DNA of 64,000 nucleotides from Janthinobacterium psychrotolerans (GTDB lineage Bacteria; Pseudomonadota; Gammaproteobacteria; Burkholderiales; Burkholderiaceae_D): NCBI RefSeq assembly GCF_001677885.1, contig NZ_LOCQ01000060.1, positions 124,001 through 188,000 on the forward strand, read 5' to 3'. The notes beneath the pieces were generated by a model. The model had not been told where the DNA came from. It searched no databases and saw only the letters and a program-made list of their open reading frames with translations. This document shows positions 8,261 to 36,725 of the stretch, in pieces. How positions within the stretch are numbered: the first letter of the stretch is position 1; every line of letters begins with the position of its first letter. Made by a program: the position numbers and the translations under genes.

Positions 8261-8480
8261 GAGCGATCCTGCCAAAGTAGGGAAAGACCGAGTATAAACA
8301 GAACCGTGGCGCACCGCCACGCCACCGCTCCGTGCCGCCCTGGACACAAGCCATTTATGTAGGTGGACTTGCAAGAATATCTTGGTTAGAATCGGCAATC
8401 AACAGTTTAATTGTCAACATATAAGATCAACAAAAACCAGCCTTCGCGTTTCTCCGATTACCTTTGCTTACTTTGCCACT

Positions 8481-8810
8481 ATGAAAAAAATATTTGCACT
8501 TCTCGTGCTTGCCGGCATAGCAAATGCCGTCACAGCGGCTGATATCGTCGGAAACGCCAAGGCCGGGACAGCCAAGGTGGAAATGTGCATCGGATGCCAT
8601 GGCATCCCCGGTTACAAGGCCACTTTTCCGGAAGTGTTCCAGGTGCCGATGATCGGCGGCCAGAGCGCCAAATATATTGAAAACGCGCTCAAGGCCTACC
8701 AGAAGGGCGACCGCAAGCACCCCACCATGAAGGGCATCGCCGCCAGCCTGTCGGACCAGGATATCGCCGACGTGGCGGCCTATTATGCGCAACAAGCCAA
8801 GCCCAACTGA
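8481..8810 (+). CDS. Periplasmic c-type cytochrome (single haem)
   Basis: A 109-residue protein with a signal peptide (cleavage after about residue 19), haem motif CIGCH at 36-40 and a C-terminal Met in HPTMKG as probable sixth ligand. This is a class I cytochrome, near the c553/c4 half-domain type. It is followed 11 bases later by a second small cytochrome c. Both lie beside norR and the nirK-norA-norB operon, so delivering electrons to periplasmic nitrite reductase is a reasonable inference. Confidence 0.88.
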   Translation: MKKIFALLVLAGIANAVTAADIVGNAKAGTAKVEMCIGCHGIPGYKATFPEVFQVPMIGGQSAKYIENALKAYQKGDRKHPTMKGIAASLSDQDIADVAAYYAQQAKPN

Positions 8811-8821
8811 GGACCAGCCAG

Positions 8822-9163
8822 ATGAAAAGACTACTCGCCGCCCTGTTGTGCTCGCTAATATCGTGTGCGGCCCTGGCCGCCGGCAATATCAATACCGGCA
8901 AGGCCCTGGCTGAAAAATACAGCTGCGCCACCTGCCATGGCAAGGACTATGCCTCGCCGATCGACCCTTCTTATCCCAAGCTGGCCGGGCAGCACCGCGA
9001 CTACCTGGAGCACGCCCTGACCACCTACAAGCGCGGCGACGGCCCGAACGGGCGCAACAACGCCATCATGACGGGCCAGGTCAAACCCTTGAGCAGCCAG
9101 GACATCAAGGACCTGGCCGCCTATTTCAACAGCCTGCCGAAAAGCCTGGTGCTGCGCCGCTAA
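8822..9163 (+). CDS. Periplasmic c-type cytochrome (single haem)
   Basis: A 113-residue protein with a signal peptide ending near residue 20 and haem motif CATCH at 35-39. NAIMTGQVKPLSSQDI supplies the likely Met ligand, and a final helix (DLAAYFNSL) is typical of class I cytochromes. It is probably cotranscribed with the preceding cytochrome gene. Its stop overlaps the stop of convergent norR by three bases. It may carry electrons to NirK or an oxidase. Confidence 0.88.
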   Translation: MKRLLAALLCSLISCAALAAGNINTGKALAEKYSCATCHGKDYASPIDPSYPKLAGQHRDYLEHALTTYKRGDGPNGRNNAIMTGQVKPLSSQDIKDLAAYFNSLPKSLVLRR

Positions 9164-10710
9164 GCTTTGAGTCCGACGCGCTTCGCCAGTTTATGCAAGT
9201 TGCTCGCGTCCAGCCCCAGCTGGCGCGCGCTGGCGGCCCAGTTGCCCTGATGCTGGCTGAGCGCCTGGCGGATCGCCTGGCGCTGGCTGGCGTCCACGAT
9301 CTGCTGCATGGTGGCGGGCGGCGCATACGGCGCTTGTGGTGCTGGCGCCTCGCTGGCGGCAGGCAGCTCGACGCCATCGAGGTCCAGCATGTCGCGCTCC
9401 AGCGTCATGATGTCTTTCCGGTCCGCGCCCCGTATCACCGCTTTCAGCGCGGCGCGGCTGATCACATGTTCCAGTTCCCTCACATTGCCGGGCCAGCGGT
9501 AGTGGCGCAGCGCGTCTTCGGCTTGCGCTGACAAGCGCAGGCTGCGCAGGCCCAAACGAGCCCGGTTCAGTTCCAGGAAGCGCCCCGCCAGGAGCAGCAC
9601 GTCGTGGCCCCGTTCGCGCAGCGGCGGGATAGGCACCGGATACACCGACAGCCGGTGATACAGGTCGGCGCGAAACGTGCCGTCGCGCACATGGTCGCGC
9701 AGGCTGCGGTTGGTGGCGGCGATCACGCGCACATTGACCCGGCGCGGCTGGTCGGCGCCCAGGCGCTGGATTTCGCCGTTCTGCAAAGTGCGCAGCAGCT
9801 TGGCCTGTATCGACAGCGGCAACTCCCCCACTTCATCGAGAAATAGCGTGCCGCCTTCGGCCGCCTCGAAACGGCCCGGCCGGTCGCTGACGGCGCCCGA
9901 GAACGCGCCGCGCGCATGGCCGAACAACTCGCTTTCGGCCAGCGATTCGGGCAGGGCCGCGCAATTGACATGGACCAGCGGCTTGCCCGCCCTGCGCGAG
10001 AGCCGGTGCAGGCGGTGCGCGCACAGCTCCTTGCCCACGCCCGTCTCGCCCAGCAGCAGCACCGGCAGCTCCGAGTCGGCCACCACTTCGAGTTCATGCA
10101 GCAGCTGCGTGATGGCCTCGCTCTGGCCCAGGAAATCGCTGTCGTCGCGTGGCGTATTGACGCTGGCTTGTGTGGCGCCGCCCGAGATGCGCAGGGCGCG
10201 GATTTCCGCTTCCAGCCGCGTCACGCGCACGGCCGCCTCGATGGCGCAGGCCAGTTCGCCCAGCTCGCGCTGCGCCTGGCTGCCAAACGCGCCCACCTGC
10301 AGCGCATCGAGCGTCACCACGCCCCAGCGCTCACCTTCGACGTCCAGCGCCATGCCCATGCAGTCGTGCACCGGCACCGGTTCGCCGGGCCGGTCGGCGA
10401 TCAGGCCGTCGTAAGGGTCGGGCATGGCGCTGTCGTGATGAAAGCAGGTCACGCCGTGCCGGCGCACGATGGTGGCCAGGCGCGGATGATCCTTGATGAG
10501 GAAGCGGCGTCCCAGGGTGTCGCTGACCAGGCCGTCCATGGCCACCGGGCGCAGATGCTCGCCGTCGAGTTTCAACAGGGCCACCGCGCCGCAGCCGAAG
10601 TGGGCGCGCAGGCTGACGACCAGACGCTGCAGGCGCACGGCCACCGGCAGGTCGGCCACCAGGTCGGTCAGCAAAAGAAGATGGGTAGTGGTAATGGTCA
10701 TGATCACCAT
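9160..10710 (-). CDS. norR: NO-responsive sigma-54 activator NorR
   Basis: A 516-residue regulator with a GAF domain (about 20-170), an AAA+ domain (about 190-420) and a Fis-type helix-turn-helix at the C-terminus (residues 475-516, NWAASARQLGLDASNLHKLAKRVGL). NorR senses NO at a non-haem iron in the GAF domain and then activates sigma-54 polymerase. The sigma-54 contact loop reads GAFSGA (268-273) instead of the usual GAFTGA, a conservative change. Two starts are possible (codons 1 and 4), and both sit on the first NorR box. It is divergent from nirK-norA-norB, the expected arrangement for its own target. Confidence 0.93.
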   Translation of the reverse strand: MVIMTITTTHLLLLTDLVADLPVAVRLQRLVVSLRAHFGCGAVALLKLDGEHLRPVAMDGLVSDTLGRRFLIKDHPRLATIVRRHGVTCFHHDSAMPDPYDGLIADRPGEPVPVHDCMGMALDVEGERWGVVTLDALQVGAFGSQAQRELGELACAIEAAVRVTRLEAEIRALRISGGATQASVNTPRDDSDFLGQSEAITQLLHELEVVADSELPVLLLGETGVGKELCAHRLHRLSRRAGKPLVHVNCAALPESLAESELFGHARGAFSGAVSDRPGRFEAAEGGTLFLDEVGELPLSIQAKLLRTLQNGEIQRLGADQPRRVNVRVIAATNRSLRDHVRDGTFRADLYHRLSVYPVPIPPLRERGHDVLLLAGRFLELNRARLGLRSLRLSAQAEDALRHYRWPGNVRELEHVISRAALKAVIRGADRKDIMTLERDMLDLDGVELPAASEAPAPQAPYAPPATMQQIVDASQRQAIRQALSQHQGNWAASARQLGLDASNLHKLAKRVGLKA

Positions 10711-10752
10711 GCAGGGTACATCCGACCGTTTGCCGGCATGGTCATTGTGACC
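10696..10752. promoter_or_regulatory. Three NorR binding boxes
   Basis: Three exact matches to GGT-N7-ACC, the NorR consensus known from Ralstonia eutropha, lie at 10696-10708 (GGTCATGATCACC), 10715-10727 (GGTACATCCGACC) and 10740-10752 (GGTCATTGTGACC). NorR enhancers normally contain three such boxes. The first covers the start codon region of norR, which would allow autoregulation. The last ends 40 bases before the -24 element of the nirK promoter. Confidence 0.85.
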
Positions 10753-10759
10753 CTGTGTT

Positions 10760-10780
10760 TTTCAAATCCTTGATTTGAAA
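10760..10780. promoter_or_regulatory. Palindrome with an IHF consensus match
   Basis: A perfect inverted repeat, TTTCAAATC and GATTTGAAA around CTT, lies between the NorR boxes and the sigma-54 promoter. Read on the minus strand (10763-10775) it contains AATCAAGGATTTG, which fits the IHF consensus WATCAANNNNTTR exactly. IHF bending at this place is common for sigma-54 promoters. Another regulator using the palindrome is possible. Confidence 0.6.
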
Positions 10781-10791
10781 CGGGTTTTTCC

Positions 10792-10806
10792 TGGCATGCG
10801 AGTTGC
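10792..10806 (+). promoter_or_regulatory. Sigma-54 (-24/-12) promoter of nirK
   Basis: The sequence TGGCATGCGAGTTGC matches TGGCAC-N5-TTGC with one mismatch and has the required GG (10793-10794) to GC (10805-10806) spacing of ten bases. The start of transcription should lie near 10818, giving a leader of about 33 bases before the nirK ATG. Confidence 0.85.
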
Positions 10807-10851
10807 GTTATTACAACTGCCAACTCGGCATACAAGACCAAGGATCATTTC

Positions 10852-12321
10852 ATGAAACCGTCGCTCCCCCTCGCCACCATCGCCGCCGCCCTGTGCCTGC
10901 TGTTTATCGATACGCCAGCGCTGGCGGCGCCCGCCAACTCCCCCGCCGCCAAGGCCGCCGCCACCGCGCCCACCACGCGCCACCATGAGCTGCAAACCAA
11001 TATCGTCGACGGCAAGATGGTGTTTGTCGACGCCAAGGGCCAGGTCAATCCGGTATTGACGGCCAATACGGGCGACACCATCGAGCTGGTACTGAAAAGC
11101 GGCGAGGGCGCCGAGCATGACCTGGTGATCCCGGAACTGAACGTCGCCTCGGCCAAGTTCAGCGCCAGCAGCGGCAAGGTCACCGTGCGCTTCAAGGTGA
11201 CAAAAGCCGGCAGCTTTACCTATTACTGCTCGATTCCCGGCCATCGCCAGATCGGCATGGAAGGCAAGCTGCAGGTCAGCGGCCCGGCCCTGGCCGACGC
11301 TGGCGCCACTGCGGCGCCGGCCGCCGGCCATGGCGGCGACGCCGGCTCGGCCGCGCTGGCGCTGTACACGCCGGCGCCGTCGCCGATGCGCGGACCGGAC
11401 CCCGCGGCCGTCAGCGTGGCGGCCAATCCGGCGCAGGTGCCCGTCGCCATCGGCGCACGCGCGCCGCAGCTGCTCAAGTACCGCATGGAGACGGTGGAAC
11501 TGCCCGGCAAGTTAGACGATGGCACCACTTTTACCTACTGGACCTTCAACCGCCAGGTGCCCGGTCCCATGCTGCGCGCGCGCGTGGGCGACACGGTCGA
11601 GCTGACCCTGTTCAACGCGGCCGACAGCAAGATGATCCACTCGATCGACCTGCACGCGGTGACCGGCGGCCATGGCGGCGGCCAGCATACCCAGGTCGCT
11701 CCGGGCCAGGAAAAAACCGTCACCTTCAAGGCGCTCAACCCGGGCCTGTATGTGTACCACTGCGCTACGCCCCTGGTGCCGCAGCATATCGCGGCCGGCA
11801 TGTACGGCATGATCCTGGTCGAGCCGGAAGGCGGCCTGGCTAAGGTCGACCGCGAGTACTACGTGATGCAGGGCGAGATGTACACCGGCCGTCCGCACGG
11901 CGCGCCCGTGCACCAGGAAGCGAACCTGGAAAAAATGGCCAACGAGCTGCCCGATTACTACGTCTTCAATGGCGAGGTGGGTGCGCTCAGCAAGACCCAC
12001 AAGCTGCAGGCGAAAGTCGGCGAGACCGTGCGCATCTACTTTGGCGTCGGTGGCCCGAACAAGATTTCATCGTTCCACATCATCGGCGAGATCTTCGACA
12101 AGGTCTACAGCGAAGGCTCGATCAGCAGCCCCAAACACGACGTGCAGACGACCCTGGTGGCGCCGGGCGGGGCGACCATCGTCGAACTGAAAGTCCAGCA
12201 TCCGGGCAGCTACCTGCTGGTCGACCATGCCCTGTCGCGCGCCGGCAAGGGCGCCGTCGGCGTGCTGGAGGTCACCGGCGACCCCGTTCCCGGCGTGTTT
12301 CACGCCGGCGCCCACCAATAA
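10852..12321 (+). CDS. nirK: Copper nitrite reductase with extra N-terminal cupredoxin domain
   Basis: A 489-residue periplasmic enzyme that reduces nitrite to NO. After a signal peptide (to about residue 25) comes a separate cupredoxin domain with an intact type 1 site (His89, Cys126, His131, Met136), then a linker and the two-domain NirK core. In the core, type 1 ligands are His263, Cys304, His312 and Met317. Type 2 ligands are His268, His303 and His409, and the catalytic Asp is Asp266. The usual NirK has about 340-380 residues. The N-terminal fusion resembles the Hyphomicrobium three-domain enzyme, where the extra domain is a built-in electron carrier. It lies directly downstream of a NorR/sigma-54 promoter. 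Confidence 0.95.
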   Translation: MKPSLPLATIAAALCLLFIDTPALAAPANSPAAKAAATAPTTRHHELQTNIVDGKMVFVDAKGQVNPVLTANTGDTIELVLKSGEGAEHDLVIPELNVASAKFSASSGKVTVRFKVTKAGSFTYYCSIPGHRQIGMEGKLQVSGPALADAGATAAPAAGHGGDAGSAALALYTPAPSPMRGPDPAAVSVAANPAQVPVAIGARAPQLLKYRMETVELPGKLDDGTTFTYWTFNRQVPGPMLRARVGDTVELTLFNAADSKMIHSIDLHAVTGGHGGGQHTQVAPGQEKTVTFKALNPGLYVYHCATPLVPQHIAAGMYGMILVEPEGGLAKVDREYYVMQGEMYTGRPHGAPVHQEANLEKMANELPDYYVFNGEVGALSKTHKLQAKVGETVRIYFGVGGPNKISSFHIIGEIFDKVYSEGSISSPKHDVQTTLVAPGGATIVELKVQHPGSYLLVDHALSRAGKGAVGVLEVTGDPVPGVFHAGAHQ

Positions 12322-12444
12322 CAACGCCTGTCAAAACCTACTGCGCGTCGGTATTTGCGGCCTGCGATGCTCACTGTACCTTCGTACAGTTGCGCTTCTC
12401 AGCCACAACTACCTTCCGCTCGCTACGGTTTTGTCAGGCGTTGT
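12321..12444. repeat. Intergenic inverted-repeat element, copy A
   Basis: A 124-base element between nirK and norA. Its ends are 18-base inverted repeats, ACAACGCCTGTCAAAACC at 12321-12338 and its complement at 12427-12444, with one mismatch. It begins on the last base of the nirK stop codon. A 52-base internal core (12357-12408) contains the hairpin ACTGTAC-N4-GTACAGT and is about 85% identical, in reverse orientation, to the core of copy B at 22272-22323. No open reading frame is supported. It may act as an mRNA structure between the two genes. Confidence 0.75.
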
Positions 12445-12474
12445 AAACCATATAACCACTTTCAAGGAGCAATC

Positions 12475-13152
12475 ATGGATTTTATCGACCAGTCCCTGGG
12501 CCAGCTGGCCCGCCGCATTCCGGGCGCCACGCGCCTGTTCGACGCCCACCATCTTGATTTTTGCTGTGGCGGCAACAAGACCCTGCGCGCGGCGGCGGCC
12601 GCCGCCGGCGTCGACACCGCCCCCATCGTCGACGAACTGCAACTGCTGCTGGCGCGCGGCGACGCGTCCGGCGAGGGCGAGTGGCAGCACGCGACGGCCG
12701 GCGAGCTGGTGGCGCATGTGCTGGCGCGCTACCACGCCGTGCACCGCGAGCAGCTGCCCGAACTGATACGCCTGGCGCGCAAGGTCGAGCAGGTGCATGG
12801 CGAGCGGGCCGACTGCCCGCATGGCCTGGCCGACCAGTTGTCAAGCATGGCGCAGGAGCTGGAAAGCCATATGCGCAAGGAGGAAAGCGTGCTGTTTCCG
12901 ATGATCGCCAATGGCCACGGCGCCATGGCGGGCGGGCCGATCAGCGTGATGCGCATGGAGCATGACGACCATGGCGTGGCCCTGCGCGCGATCGAGCAGC
13001 TGACGAACGGCATCGTGCCGCCCGGCGGCGCCTGCACCACCTGGCGCGCGCTGTACACGGGTCTGCGCACCTTCCGCGCAGACCTGATGGCGCATATCCA
13101 CACTGAAAACAACATCCTGTTCGAGCGCTTTGCGCCGGCCATGGTGCATTGA
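12475..13152 (+). CDS. norA: Di-iron Fe-S cluster repair protein (NorA/ScdA/YtfE)
   Basis: A 225-residue cytoplasmic protein. The N-terminal ScdA_N region carries the Cys30-Cys31 pair in LDFCCGGNKTL. The rest is a hemerythrin-like four-helix bundle with the di-iron ligands seen in HVLARYHAVHREQLPEL, ESHMRKEESVLFP, MRMEHDDHG and LMAHIHTENNILFERF. Members of this family bind NO and repair iron-sulfur clusters damaged by NO. In Ralstonia eutropha the homologue norA is cotranscribed with norB under NorR. AAGGAGC precedes the ATG. It lies between nirK and norB on one strand. Confidence 0.93.
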   Translation: MDFIDQSLGQLARRIPGATRLFDAHHLDFCCGGNKTLRAAAAAAGVDTAPIVDELQLLLARGDASGEGEWQHATAGELVAHVLARYHAVHREQLPELIRLARKVEQVHGERADCPHGLADQLSSMAQELESHMRKEESVLFPMIANGHGAMAGGPISVMRMEHDDHGVALRAIEQLTNGIVPPGGACTTWRALYTGLRTFRADLMAHIHTENNILFERFAPAMVH

Positions 13153-13167
13153 CGAAGAAAGACCAAG

Positions 13168-15447
13168 ATGGGTCAATATAAAAAACTCTGGTTCACCTTG
13201 ATCGGCGTGCTGATCGTGACCTTTTCCCTGCTCGGCTACTATGGTACCGAAGTGTACCGGCAGGCGCCGCCGATTCCCGCGCAAGTCACCGCGCCGGGCG
13301 GCAAACTGCTGTTCGACCGCGAAGGCATTCTCGACGGCCAGACGGCCTGGCAATCGGTGGGCGGCATGCAGCTCGGTTCCATCTGGGGCCACGGCGCCTA
13401 CCAGGCGCCCGACTGGACGGCCGACTGGCTGCACCGCGAACTGATGGCCTGGCTGGAACTGGCCGCGCAGGACCAGCATGGCAAGGCCTATGCGGCGCTG
13501 GACGGCCCGGCGCAGGCGGCGCTGCGCGAAGCGCTCAAACTCGAATACCGCGGCAACGGCGTCGATGCGGCGCAGGAGCTGCATCTGTCGGCGCGCCGGG
13601 TCGAGGCGATCCGCGTCACCGCCAGTTACTACGACCAGCTGTTCTCGGACGCGCCCGCGCTGCGCAGCAGCCGCGAACACTACGCGATGAAGGAAAACAC
13701 CCTGCCGAGCGCCGAGCGGCGCCAGCAGATGACGCAGTTCTTCTTCTGGACCGCCTGGGCCGCCGCCACCGAGCGTCCCGGCCATGACGTCACCTACACC
13801 AACAACTGGCCGCACGAACCGCTGATCGGCAATCGCCCGAGCGGCGAAAACGTGGTCTGGTCGGTCGCCAGTGTGGTGGTGCTGCTGGCCGGTGTCGGCT
13901 TCCTGGTGTGGGGCTGGGCCTTCCTGCGCGACCACGACGAGCCGTTGCCGGCGCCCGGCGCGCGCGATCCGCTCACCACGTTTGCCCTGACGCCGTCGCA
14001 GCGTGGCCTGGGCAAATACCTGTTCCTGGTCGTCGCCCTGTTTGTTTTCCAGGTGTTTATCGGCGGCTTCACGGCCCACTATACGGTCGAAGGCCAGCAG
14101 TTCTACGGCATCGACGTGTCGCGCTGGTTCCCGTATGCGCTGACGCGCACCTGGCATATCCAGGCGGCGCTGTTCTGGATCGCCACCGGCTTCCTGGCCG
14201 CCGGCCTGTTCCTGGCACCCCTGATCAATGGCGGCAAAGACCCGAAATGGCAGCGGCTTGGCGTCGACGTGCTGTTCTGGGCGCTGGTGGTGGTCGTGGT
14301 CGGCTCGTTTGTCGGCAACTACCTGGCGATTGCCCAGGTGATGCCGCCCGAATGGAATTTCTGGCTCGGCCACCAGGGTTATGAGTATGTGGACCTGGGC
14401 CGCCTGTGGCAGATCGGCAAATACATCGGCATCCTGCTGTGGCTGGCACTGATGCTGCGCGGCGTGGTGCCGGCGCTGCTCAGCAAGGGCGGCGACAAGA
14501 ACCTGCTGGCGCTGCTGACGGCCTCGGTGGGCGCGATTGGCCTGTTCTATGGCGCCGGCCTGTTCTACGGCGAGCGCACGCATTTGTCGGTGATGGAATA
14601 CTGGCGCTGGTGGGTGGTGCATCTGTGGGTCGAAGGCTTCTTCGAAGTGTTCGCCACCACGGCGCTGGCGTTTATCTTTTCGACCCTGGGACTGGTGTCG
14701 GGCCGCATGGCCACCGCCGCCAGCCTGGCCTCGGCCTCGCTGTTCATGCTGGGCGGCATACCGGGCACCTTCCACCATCTGTATTTTGCCGGCACCACCA
14801 CGCCGGTGATGGCGATCGGCGCGAGCTTCAGCGCGCTCGAAGTGGTGCCGCTGATCGTGCTCGGCCACGAAGCGTGGGAAAACTGGCGCCTGAAAGACCG
14901 CGCGGCCTGGATGGAGCACCTGCGCTGGCCCCTGATGTGCTTTGTCGCGGTGGCGTTCTGGAACATGCTGGGCGCGGGCGTGTTCGGCTTCATGATCAAT
15001 CCGCCGATGGCGCTGTACTACATCCAGGGCCTGAACACCACGCCGGTGCATGCCCATGCGGCGCTGTTCGGCGTGTACGGTTTCCTGGCGCTGGGCTTTA
15101 CCCTGCTGGTGCTGCGCTATCTGCGGCCCGACTATCGCTTCAGCAAGCCGCTGATGATGACGGCCTTCTGGGGCCTGAACGCGGGCCTGGTGCTGATGAT
15201 CTTTACCAGCCTGCTGCCGATCGGCATCATCCAGTTCCACGCCAGCGTGACCGAAGGGCTGTGGCATGCGCGCAGCGAGGCATTCATGCAGCAGCCGCTG
15301 CTGCAGAACCTGCGCTGGGTGCGTACCTTCGGTGATGTGGTGTTTATCGTCGGCGCGCTGGCCATGGCGCTGCAGGTGGTGCTGGGGCTGCTGGGCAAGG
15401 CGCCCAAGACTCCGGTGCCGCAGCCGCAGGCGGTGCGGGCTGCCTGA
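13168..15447 (+). CDS. norB: Quinol-dependent nitric oxide reductase
   Basis: A 759-residue single-subunit NO reductase that turns two NO into N2O using quinol. It has an N-terminal transmembrane helix, a periplasmic domain of about 200 residues (the NorC-like part without a haem motif), then a 12-helix haem-copper oxidase core with conserved histidines in RTWHIQAALFW, VVHLWVEGFFE and GTFHHLYFAG. Length and layout fit qNor, not the two-subunit cNor. It starts 15 bases after norA, and its stop abuts the convergent DUF1841 gene without an obvious terminator between. Confidence 0.95.
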   Translation: MGQYKKLWFTLIGVLIVTFSLLGYYGTEVYRQAPPIPAQVTAPGGKLLFDREGILDGQTAWQSVGGMQLGSIWGHGAYQAPDWTADWLHRELMAWLELAAQDQHGKAYAALDGPAQAALREALKLEYRGNGVDAAQELHLSARRVEAIRVTASYYDQLFSDAPALRSSREHYAMKENTLPSAERRQQMTQFFFWTAWAAATERPGHDVTYTNNWPHEPLIGNRPSGENVVWSVASVVVLLAGVGFLVWGWAFLRDHDEPLPAPGARDPLTTFALTPSQRGLGKYLFLVVALFVFQVFIGGFTAHYTVEGQQFYGIDVSRWFPYALTRTWHIQAALFWIATGFLAAGLFLAPLINGGKDPKWQRLGVDVLFWALVVVVVGSFVGNYLAIAQVMPPEWNFWLGHQGYEYVDLGRLWQIGKYIGILLWLALMLRGVVPALLSKGGDKNLLALLTASVGAIGLFYGAGLFYGERTHLSVMEYWRWWVVHLWVEGFFEVFATTALAFIFSTLGLVSGRMATAASLASASLFMLGGIPGTFHHLYFAGTTTPVMAIGASFSALEVVPLIVLGHEAWENWRLKDRAAWMEHLRWPLMCFVAVAFWNMLGAGVFGFMINPPMALYYIQGLNTTPVHAHAALFGVYGFLALGFTLLVLRYLRPDYRFSKPLMMTAFWGLNAGLVLMIFTSLLPIGIIQFHASVTEGLWHARSEAFMQQPLLQNLRWVRTFGDVVFIVGALAMALQVVLGLLGKAPKTPVPQPQAVRAA

Positions 15448-15870
15448 TTATCGGCGGCGCACGCAGTCGATATACGCATCGGTATCGGGCGGCAAGCCCG
15501 AGCGTTGCGAGGCCCAGATCATCTGGCCCAGGCATTCCATCACTTCGTGCTGGGCCGCATGGGCCGAATCGAGACGCTGGGCCAGTTGCTGGACCGCCGT
15601 GCGGATGCCGCGCGGCTGGTCCACCTGCACCTGTTCCGTGATCGACAGATGCATGGACAGGTGCAGGAATGGGTTGGCCTGGCCGCCTTCGACCGAATAG
15701 TCGCGCGCCAGCGCCGCTTCCACATCCGACAGTTCATTCTCATACTCGGGATGCTCGAGGATCCAGTCGATCGCGATCGCTTCCATCGGCGACAGGATTT
15801 CGCGGGCGCGGTGCTTGCGCAGGGTGTCGCAAAAAAAGCGGCGCACATCGTCGGAAGAAGGATTGAACAT
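15448..15870 (-). CDS. DUF1841 family protein
   Basis: A 140-residue soluble protein matching the DUF1841 pattern: MFNPSSDDVRRFFCDTLRKHR at the start (first part FNPSSDDVRRFF), a central ANPFLHLSMHLSITEQVQVDQPRGIR and a C-terminal CLGQMIW. It is common in Beta- and Gammaproteobacteria. Function is unknown. It is convergent with norB, the two stops being adjacent. Confidence 0.85.
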   Translation of the reverse strand: MFNPSSDDVRRFFCDTLRKHRAREILSPMEAIAIDWILEHPEYENELSDVEAALARDYSVEGGQANPFLHLSMHLSITEQVQVDQPRGIRTAVQQLAQRLDSAHAAQHEVMECLGQMIWASQRSGLPPDTDAYIDCVRRR

Positions 15871-22238: not shown

Positions 22239-22355
22239 AAGGCGTTCAAAATCGTCGCGAGCGGATGTGATTTGTGGCCGAGAAGCGCAACCGTACTTTA
22301 GTACGGTGAGCATCGCCGGCCGCAAAGCGCGCCGCGCAGCAGATTTTGAAGCCTT
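22239..22355. repeat. Intergenic inverted-repeat element, copy B
   Basis: Terminal inverted repeats AAGGCGTTCAAAATC (22239-22253) and GATTTTGAAGCCTT (22342-22355) enclose the 52-base core (22272-22323) that copy A carries in the other orientation. The core hairpin reads ACCGTAC-N4-GTACGGT here and ACTGTAC-N4-GTACAGT in copy A, a compensated base pair. The right end runs into the ffh stop codon. The remaining 22 kb-side spacer (21944-22238) holds no gene that I can see. Confidence 0.75.
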
Positions 22356-36448: not shown

Positions 36449-36725
36449 CATCAAAGACGTTTTCAGCTTTTTTGCCCTAGCCGGCGTCAATCTTCATATT
36501 GGCTTGCCTGGCAAGCTGGCATAGGCGGTTTATCACCCTTCGAGATGTTTTTCGCGCCCCGCCGGGCGTGAGGGCGGGCTGTTTTCATTAGTATCATCTG
36601 ATGCATCAAAACTGTATCTTATTAACAATAAATACCGGAAGAAGCCCGGACCATCGGGCGTTCTATTCATCAACACACGCGGCAGCAAAACTGCAGGCTG
36701 ACTTTAGCTGACAACGGGAGCTTCA

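Follow-up and report, generated by a model that had tools for sequence, protein, structure and literature searches.

In Janthinobacterium psychrotolerans, nirK, the gene for copper nitrite reductase, is divergent from norR, the gene for a nitric oxide (NO)-responsive sigma-54 activator, and is followed by norA and norB. The locus lies in a stretch of 64,000 nucleotides (hereafter the window, to which all coordinates refer) that is part of a 5.84-Mb genome. According to Rodionov and co-workers, NorR targets are norVW, norB, hmp, dnrN, nnrS and hcp, and nirK is assigned to DNR, NnrR or NsrR (PMC1274295; here and for the other articles cited, statements hold for the available excerpts of the text). 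An earlier note, made from the sequence alone, had instead placed nirK under NorR, so that the NO-producing enzyme would be activated by its own product together with the NO sink. Sequence elements, gene order, conservation and distribution were observed directly, and we consider it highly probable that NorR and sigma-54 form an NO-response module at this locus, and that nirK was added at the head of its target operon.

Promoter elements between norR and nirK

The three GGT-N7-ACC boxes, the site for integration host factor (IHF) and the -24/-12 promoter listed in the earlier note are all present. The boxes are exact and read on the forward strand: box 1 (GGTCATGATCACC, 10696-10708) overlaps the start of norR, and is followed by box 2 (GGTACATCCGACC, 10715-10727) and box 3 (GGTCATTGTGACC, 10740-10752), with start-to-start distances of 19 bp between the first two and 25 bp between the second and the third. 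Between this enhancer and the promoter, the minus strand carries an exact match (AATCAAGGATTTG, 10763-10775) to what we take to be the IHF consensus, enclosed in a 21-bp palindrome (10760-10780) recognized by eye. The putative sigma-54 promoter (TGGCATGCGAGTTGCG, 10792-10807, forward strand) retains 10 of the 12 consensus letters and is positioned 60 bp upstream of nirK.

The same kind of scan applied to the norR-norV region of Escherichia coli recovered three GT-N7-AC sites. A single GGT-N7-ACC is common in the window (24 matches versus 9.2 expected), and the 5.84-Mb genome has one exact copy of the pair spaced by 19 bp; when up to two mismatches are allowed, the pair does not exceed its reversed control in frequency (213 versus 275 matches per strand). 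The triple with at most one mismatch is present in 6 of 399 genomes of the order, the source genome included, and its reversed control matched in two.

Conservation within Janthinobacterium

Conservation provides the strongest evidence. Fifteen congeneric loci were picked by their nirK, with none dropped, and their promoters all differ from each other. Counted from the nirK start, every one of them has its boxes at -156, -137 and -112 and its -24/-12 element at -60. Invariance extends to all 18 half-site positions of the boxes, whereas 9 of the 21 inner box positions (Fisher p 8e-5) and 66 of the 127 remaining positions (p 4e-5) are invariant, with positions treated as independent and relatedness ignored in both tests. 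Of the eight core letters of the -24/-12 element, seven are invariant. The exact triple was found in 25 of 40 genomes of the genus, once in each, and all 25 of these loci have 156 bp between the start of box 1 and that of nirK, together with the IHF consensus and with norR on the opposite strand. The same enhancer precedes nirK in J. lividum, J. violaceinigrum and other named records; two congeners have a NirK identical to that of named Janthinobacterium, and norB is 91-93% identical to its matches in named loci. Overall, the NorR enhancer looks real and constrained, as judged from these comparisons.

The gene for NorR and a long nirK travel together: they co-occur in 15 of 19 sampled congeners, counting the source, and neither was found in the other four at the cut-offs used. 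In one congener (locus L197) tandem boxes are lacking, and the NirK is a different one. The idea that the genus is split between nirK promoters driven by NorR and others was considered and rejected, as the enhancer was present in 15 of 15 loci once these had been oriented by strand.

Rarity outside the genus

The earlier note had called nirK unusual as the first gene of a NorR operon, and a census agrees. We searched a collection of 84,980 species by its description, which may omit records near the source genome, for the exact triple with 19- and 25-bp spacing followed 34-58 bp on by TGGC-N7-TTGC; since only the exact pattern is counted, looser NorR promoters before nirK are missed. The 64 strict NorR-type promoters so obtained have norA as the first gene in 45 cases, nirK in 12, norB in three, and another gene in four. 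The 12 nirK-first promoters belong to 11 Janthinobacterium records and one metagenome genome (L082), the NirK and NorR of which are each 81% identical to the source-strain proteins. A divergent NorR match accompanies 55 of the 64; for three of the remaining nine, the stretch ends no more than 0.8 kb from the promoter, and for six, norR is absent from more than 1.4 kb. All 12 nirK-first loci match the IHF consensus (shuffled-spacer rate 0.4%), but only 10 of the 45 norA-first promoters do, so this site is not universal. In Methyloversatilis (L101), a second strict NorR-type promoter was noticed in an 8-kb stretch that yielded no match to norA, nirK, norB, hmp or norR.

The comparison across the family suggested in the earlier note separates Janthinobacterium from its relatives: the enhancer precedes nirK in 15 of 15 loci of the genus, and neither tandem boxes nor a NorR match were found in the fetched stretches of 54 nirK loci from other family genera. 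A NirK match is present in 68 of 245 family genomes, and 70 of 76 places were read (those omitted are two in G238 and one each in G108, G172, G087 and G021), one of them, L201, with 437 bp upstream only. Tandem boxes or a NorR match were likewise not found at 29 nirK loci read from the class, own loci excluded (of 37 places). What precedes nirK in other genera is often an FNR/DNR-type box, seen in 12 of the 14 loci with related NirK (L025-L038), in 4 of the 40 further family loci, i.e. in 16 of 54 overall, and in 13 of the 29 class loci, at a letter-shuffled rate of 0.2% per kb; one class locus has an NsrR-type site. The nirK-first NorR wiring thus looks conserved in Janthinobacterium and rare outside it. 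In the open-licence literature searched, NorR control of nirK was not found among the matches listed, nor, by title or abstract start, was NorR in Janthinobacterium.

Genes of the locus

The norR gene (9160-10710, minus strand, with its start at 10710 or 10701) codes for a GAF domain, an AAA+ domain and a C-terminal region. Its product matches the NorR equivalog NCBIfam NF003451 over the full length (707.8 bits, cut-off 476) and the Pfam GAF and Sigma54_activat domains, and its C-terminal region aligns with the DNA-binding end of E. coli NorR. The stretches GRRF, PDPYDGL, VHxC and TLD of the GAF domain are common to both proteins in the alignment, and on this ground we take as present the residues that we assume to be implicated in iron binding by E. 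coli NorR (Arg75, Asp96, Asp99, Cys113 and Asp131). The sigma-54 contact loop reads GAFSGA, as in all 51 readable NorR matches of the 64-locus census, and GAFTGA in E. coli. The source genome has rpoN.

On the opposite strand, nirK (10852-12321), norA (12475-13152) and norB (13168-15447) follow each other in the order that the earlier note had proposed, with norB lying beyond the range given there, which ended at norA. The 489-aa NirK (TIGR02376, 343.3 bits, cut-off 296.3) carries an N-terminal cupredoxin domain (PF00127, residues 48-142). The solved structures closest to it by sequence, 6tfd and 2dv6, are three-domain copper nitrite reductases which align over this extra domain too, and it is the regulation that sets the Janthinobacterium gene apart from them. 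Its copper-ligand stretches can be aligned with structurally characterized three-domain nitrite reductases, the ligand residues presumably having the roles that we assign to them. The 225-aa NorA is a RIC/YtfE di-iron repair protein (NF008221, 318.9 bits, cut-off 254; TIGR03652, 249.3 bits, cut-off 204.7). The norB product had no NCBIfam match; a cytochrome-c-like domain (PF22085) and the NorB core (PF00115) are fused on one chain of 759 aa, by which it is classed as a single-chain, quinol-type NO reductase predicted to use quinol.

Origin of the arrangement

Relatives offer several versions of the locus without nirK. In one family genome (G172, locus L058), three boxes with the same 19- and 25-bp spacing precede norA; in three genomes of another family genus, norR is divergent from norA, with two exact boxes; and in a third genus, norR is divergent from a flavohaemoglobin-like gene in 11 of 16 loci (the 11 fetched), mostly without exact boxes, the gene call having been tested by model in one of the eleven. 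The norR match of L058 contains one in-frame TGA, and is possibly a decaying copy or a sequence error. A NirK tree was built for 48 loci (30 from the family, 3 from the census of 64 and 15 from the class set of 29) and rooted at the midpoint. It places the NorR-driven NirKs on one side of a branch and the FNR-box rows on the other (18 rows, 16 of them different; 100/100, and 99/99 for the 18 alone).

Taken together, gene orders and tree suggest that the arrangement probably arose once, with nirK placed between the NorR enhancer and norA, and a single insertion there is the simplest reading; an alternative origin is transfer of the whole block into the genus. By the same comparison, NorR/sigma-54 control probably took the place of Crp/Fnr-type control through FNR/DNR boxes, the direction of change being our inference. 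It looks as though nirK has exchanged Crp/Fnr-type sites for control by another class of regulator, an NO-sensing AAA+ activator working with sigma-54.

Alternative explanations

NorR might serve NO protection only, with a Crp/Fnr-type or NsrR activator driving nirK from an unrecognized sigma-70 promoter and the enhancer acting on norA-norB by read-through. The FNR/DNR-type boxes in 12 of 14 loci with related NirK are in favor of such a regulator, as are the Crp/Fnr regulators of the source genome. Near nirK itself, however, neither an FNR/DNR site (TTGAT-N4-ATCAA) nor an NsrR site (ATGYAT-N5-ATRCAT) was found at up to two mismatches; the latter has two such matches in the whole window, at 36601 and 49482, and TTGAY-N4-RTCAA is absent upstream of nirK in all 15 congeneric loci. 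The palindrome at 10760-10780 was considered as a degenerate FNR/DNR box and rejected, as it contains no match to TTGATNNNNATCAA with up to two mismatches, and the exact IHF consensus in it is kept in 25 of 25 loci. Around the nar genes, FNR/DNR boxes are not above chance (5 matches with up to two mismatches versus 3.7 expected). A separate sigma-70 start, which the earlier note had considered, was not seen either, and the -24/-12 element stays at a fixed 60 bp from the nirK start in 15 of 15 loci. We therefore regard control by another activator as very improbable. It is quite improbable, too, that NirK functions mainly in detoxification rather than respiration, removing nitrite or partly running backwards to oxidize NO, with the whole operon a detoxification unit. 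Copper nitrite reductases can run in reverse; no nosZ match was found in the source genome with TIGR04244 (the clade II model was not run), and only 5 of 26 genomes of the genus are above its cut-off; and NorR regulons elsewhere consist mainly of detoxification genes (PMC1274295). Against this stand the copper-ligand alignment described above and the presence of narG, which with nirK and norB gives a chain from nitrate to nitrous oxide (N2O).

A third alternative concerns the source strain only. Its nirK-norA gap measures 153 bp because it holds a 127-bp palindromic intergenic repeat (12321-12447), which has 25 matches in the source genome, some of them partial; another copy of this roughly 125-bp repeat is seen at 22247-22349. 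The segment 12318-12470 folds at -61.1 kcal/mol (z -7.7). The repeat is in the gap in none of 15 congeners examined, i.e. only in the source strain of 16 genomes, and the gap is 19-32 bp in all 14 congeners measured; in the closest relative found, with a NirK 93% identical, it is about 22 bp, without the repeat. Related copies occur elsewhere in other Janthinobacterium loci. Such an element could split the operon, so that NorR would drive nirK strongly and norA-norB weakly or from elsewhere, which we consider unlikely: the scan detected neither a terminator-like site within the gap nor a promoter-like one farther downstream. The same terminator scan picks out box 3 itself as a hairpin of the terminator type; it found three such sites versus 3.7 expected. 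Transcription through the repeat from nirK into norA is nevertheless uncertain in this strain, and the repeat could change the ratio of nirK to norA-norB.

Several observations weigh against a NorR-driven nirK operon, or against parts of its history as given above. The exact triple is missing in 15 of 40 congeners (12 of 37 good-quality genomes), while 24 of 26 genomes have narG above cut-off. With G or C as its last letter, the -12 half departs from the consensus at one position; coding constraint may add to the invariance of box 1, which overlaps norR; and the sigma-70 consensus scan of 10600-15600, with no sites versus 0.8 expected, covers one promoter type only. Two regulators of the source genome could act on nirK indirectly: a Crp/Fnr protein (L162:6517-7212) and an FNR-like protein (L145) named by eye from its cysteines. 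The former lacks the cysteine cluster seen by eye in the latter, is not beside recognized denitrification genes, and could not be typed as DNR. The strong hairpin may uncouple nirK from norA in the source strain. As for the replacement of Crp/Fnr-type control, the NirK tree comes with a long-branch warning and 16 of its 43 inner branches are starred, and FNR/DNR-type sites, common as they are before nirK, are far from universal by the strict pattern. By the patterns used, boxes of both the NorR and the FNR type are absent from L024, the nearest NirK outgroup, and for both of these reasons the case for a replacement is weaker than that for NorR sites being present.

Proposed mechanism

For the NorR-driven nirK-norA-norB operon, binding, NO response, sigma-54 dependence and co-transcription, and hence all control, are predictions from sequence. 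NorR would be made at a basal level and probably limits its own expression, as suggested by the overlap of box 1 with the norR start; negative autoregulation has been proposed for NorR2 of Vibrionales (PMC1274295). The first NO could be a side product of nitrate reductase acting on nitrite or could come from outside, and would bind to the GAF domain of NorR. IHF would then bend the DNA, so that NorR on its three boxes could be looped onto the sigma-54 polymerase at the -24/-12 element, and nirK, norA and norB would be transcribed together. NirK would make more NO from nitrite, a positive feedback, NorB would reduce NO to N2O, and NorA would repair or protect iron centers. NO source and sink should therefore rise together, and N2O is the expected end product.

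A second NO-producing nitrite reductase in the source genome was considered and set aside, since there is a single NirK match at E <= 1e-40 and the nirS-type Pfam model gives only a partial match of 29.9 bits. Similar weak matches occur in most congeners; of the 40 genomes of the genus, the only one with a full-strength nirS match is 6% contaminated.

Comparison with known systems

A close parallel is the NorR-norAB system of Ralstonia eutropha / Cupriavidus necator, which shares NorR, three tandem sites and the targets norA and norB (PMC1274295, PMC9045102) and differs from Janthinobacterium in that the latter has nirK as the first gene. Ralstonia solanacearum, too, has a NorR site before norA, and norR deletion lowers norA expression 15-fold; there, however, norA is the only protein gene of the NorR regulon as reported, with norB unchanged (PMC9045102). 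NorR and DNR are described as jointly regulating nir, nor and nos in three Ralstonia species, the regulator of nir being unspecified in that account (PMC1274295). In Pseudomonas stutzeri, the hmp promoter has three candidate NorR sites (at -192, -173 and -148), as many as are found here, but drives flavohaemoglobin and carries a DNR site as well. A nitrogen-oxide-responsive regulator also controls nirK in Nitrosomonas europaea and, by prediction, in Neisseria (PMC1274295); this is NsrR, a repressor of the Rrf2 family, for which no site was found near the Janthinobacterium nirK.

In denitrifiers, NnrR/DNR control of nirK and nor already provides an NO-sensing activator that switches the NO source and sink together, and in Rhodobacter sphaeroides nirK and norCBQD require NnrR, which senses NO (PMC8139620). 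Thus, of the feedback proposed in the earlier note, the wiring is supported by the sequence elements and the gene order, whereas its logic does not come as a surprise. The difference lies in the regulator and the sigma factor: NnrR and DNR are Crp/Fnr proteins (DNR motif CTTGATnnnnATCAAG, PMC1274295), as opposed to an AAA+ activator with sigma-54 in Janthinobacterium.

Implications for denitrification in Janthinobacterium

From the wiring one can predict at what point N2O emission begins in this common soil and water genus, and whether it can occur when oxygen is present. It is tempting to speculate, though we hold this only tentatively, that NO production in Janthinobacterium depends on NO and not on the lack of oxygen, in which case nitrite plus trace NO, even in air or from a neighbor or host, would flip a self-amplifying, N2O-making switch. 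If so, aerobic denitrification, as reported for J. svalbardensis F19 (PMC9339992), could have its basis in this switch. This link is weakened by the fact that the report, in the excerpt available, names a nirS PCR product and not nirK, although full-strength nirS is as rare in the genus as stated above. The J. svalbardensis genome is described as containing nitrate reductase, NirK (three genes), NirS and NO reductase, with no N2O reductase in that description (PMC5690324). Relatives with norA-first NorR operons and those with FNR/DNR-box nirK provide natural controls.

Finally, two small c-type cytochrome genes (8382-9163) converge on norR and adjoin it in all 15 norR loci of the genus; they were not seen in the metagenome locus L082. 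Their products are possible electron donors for NirK.

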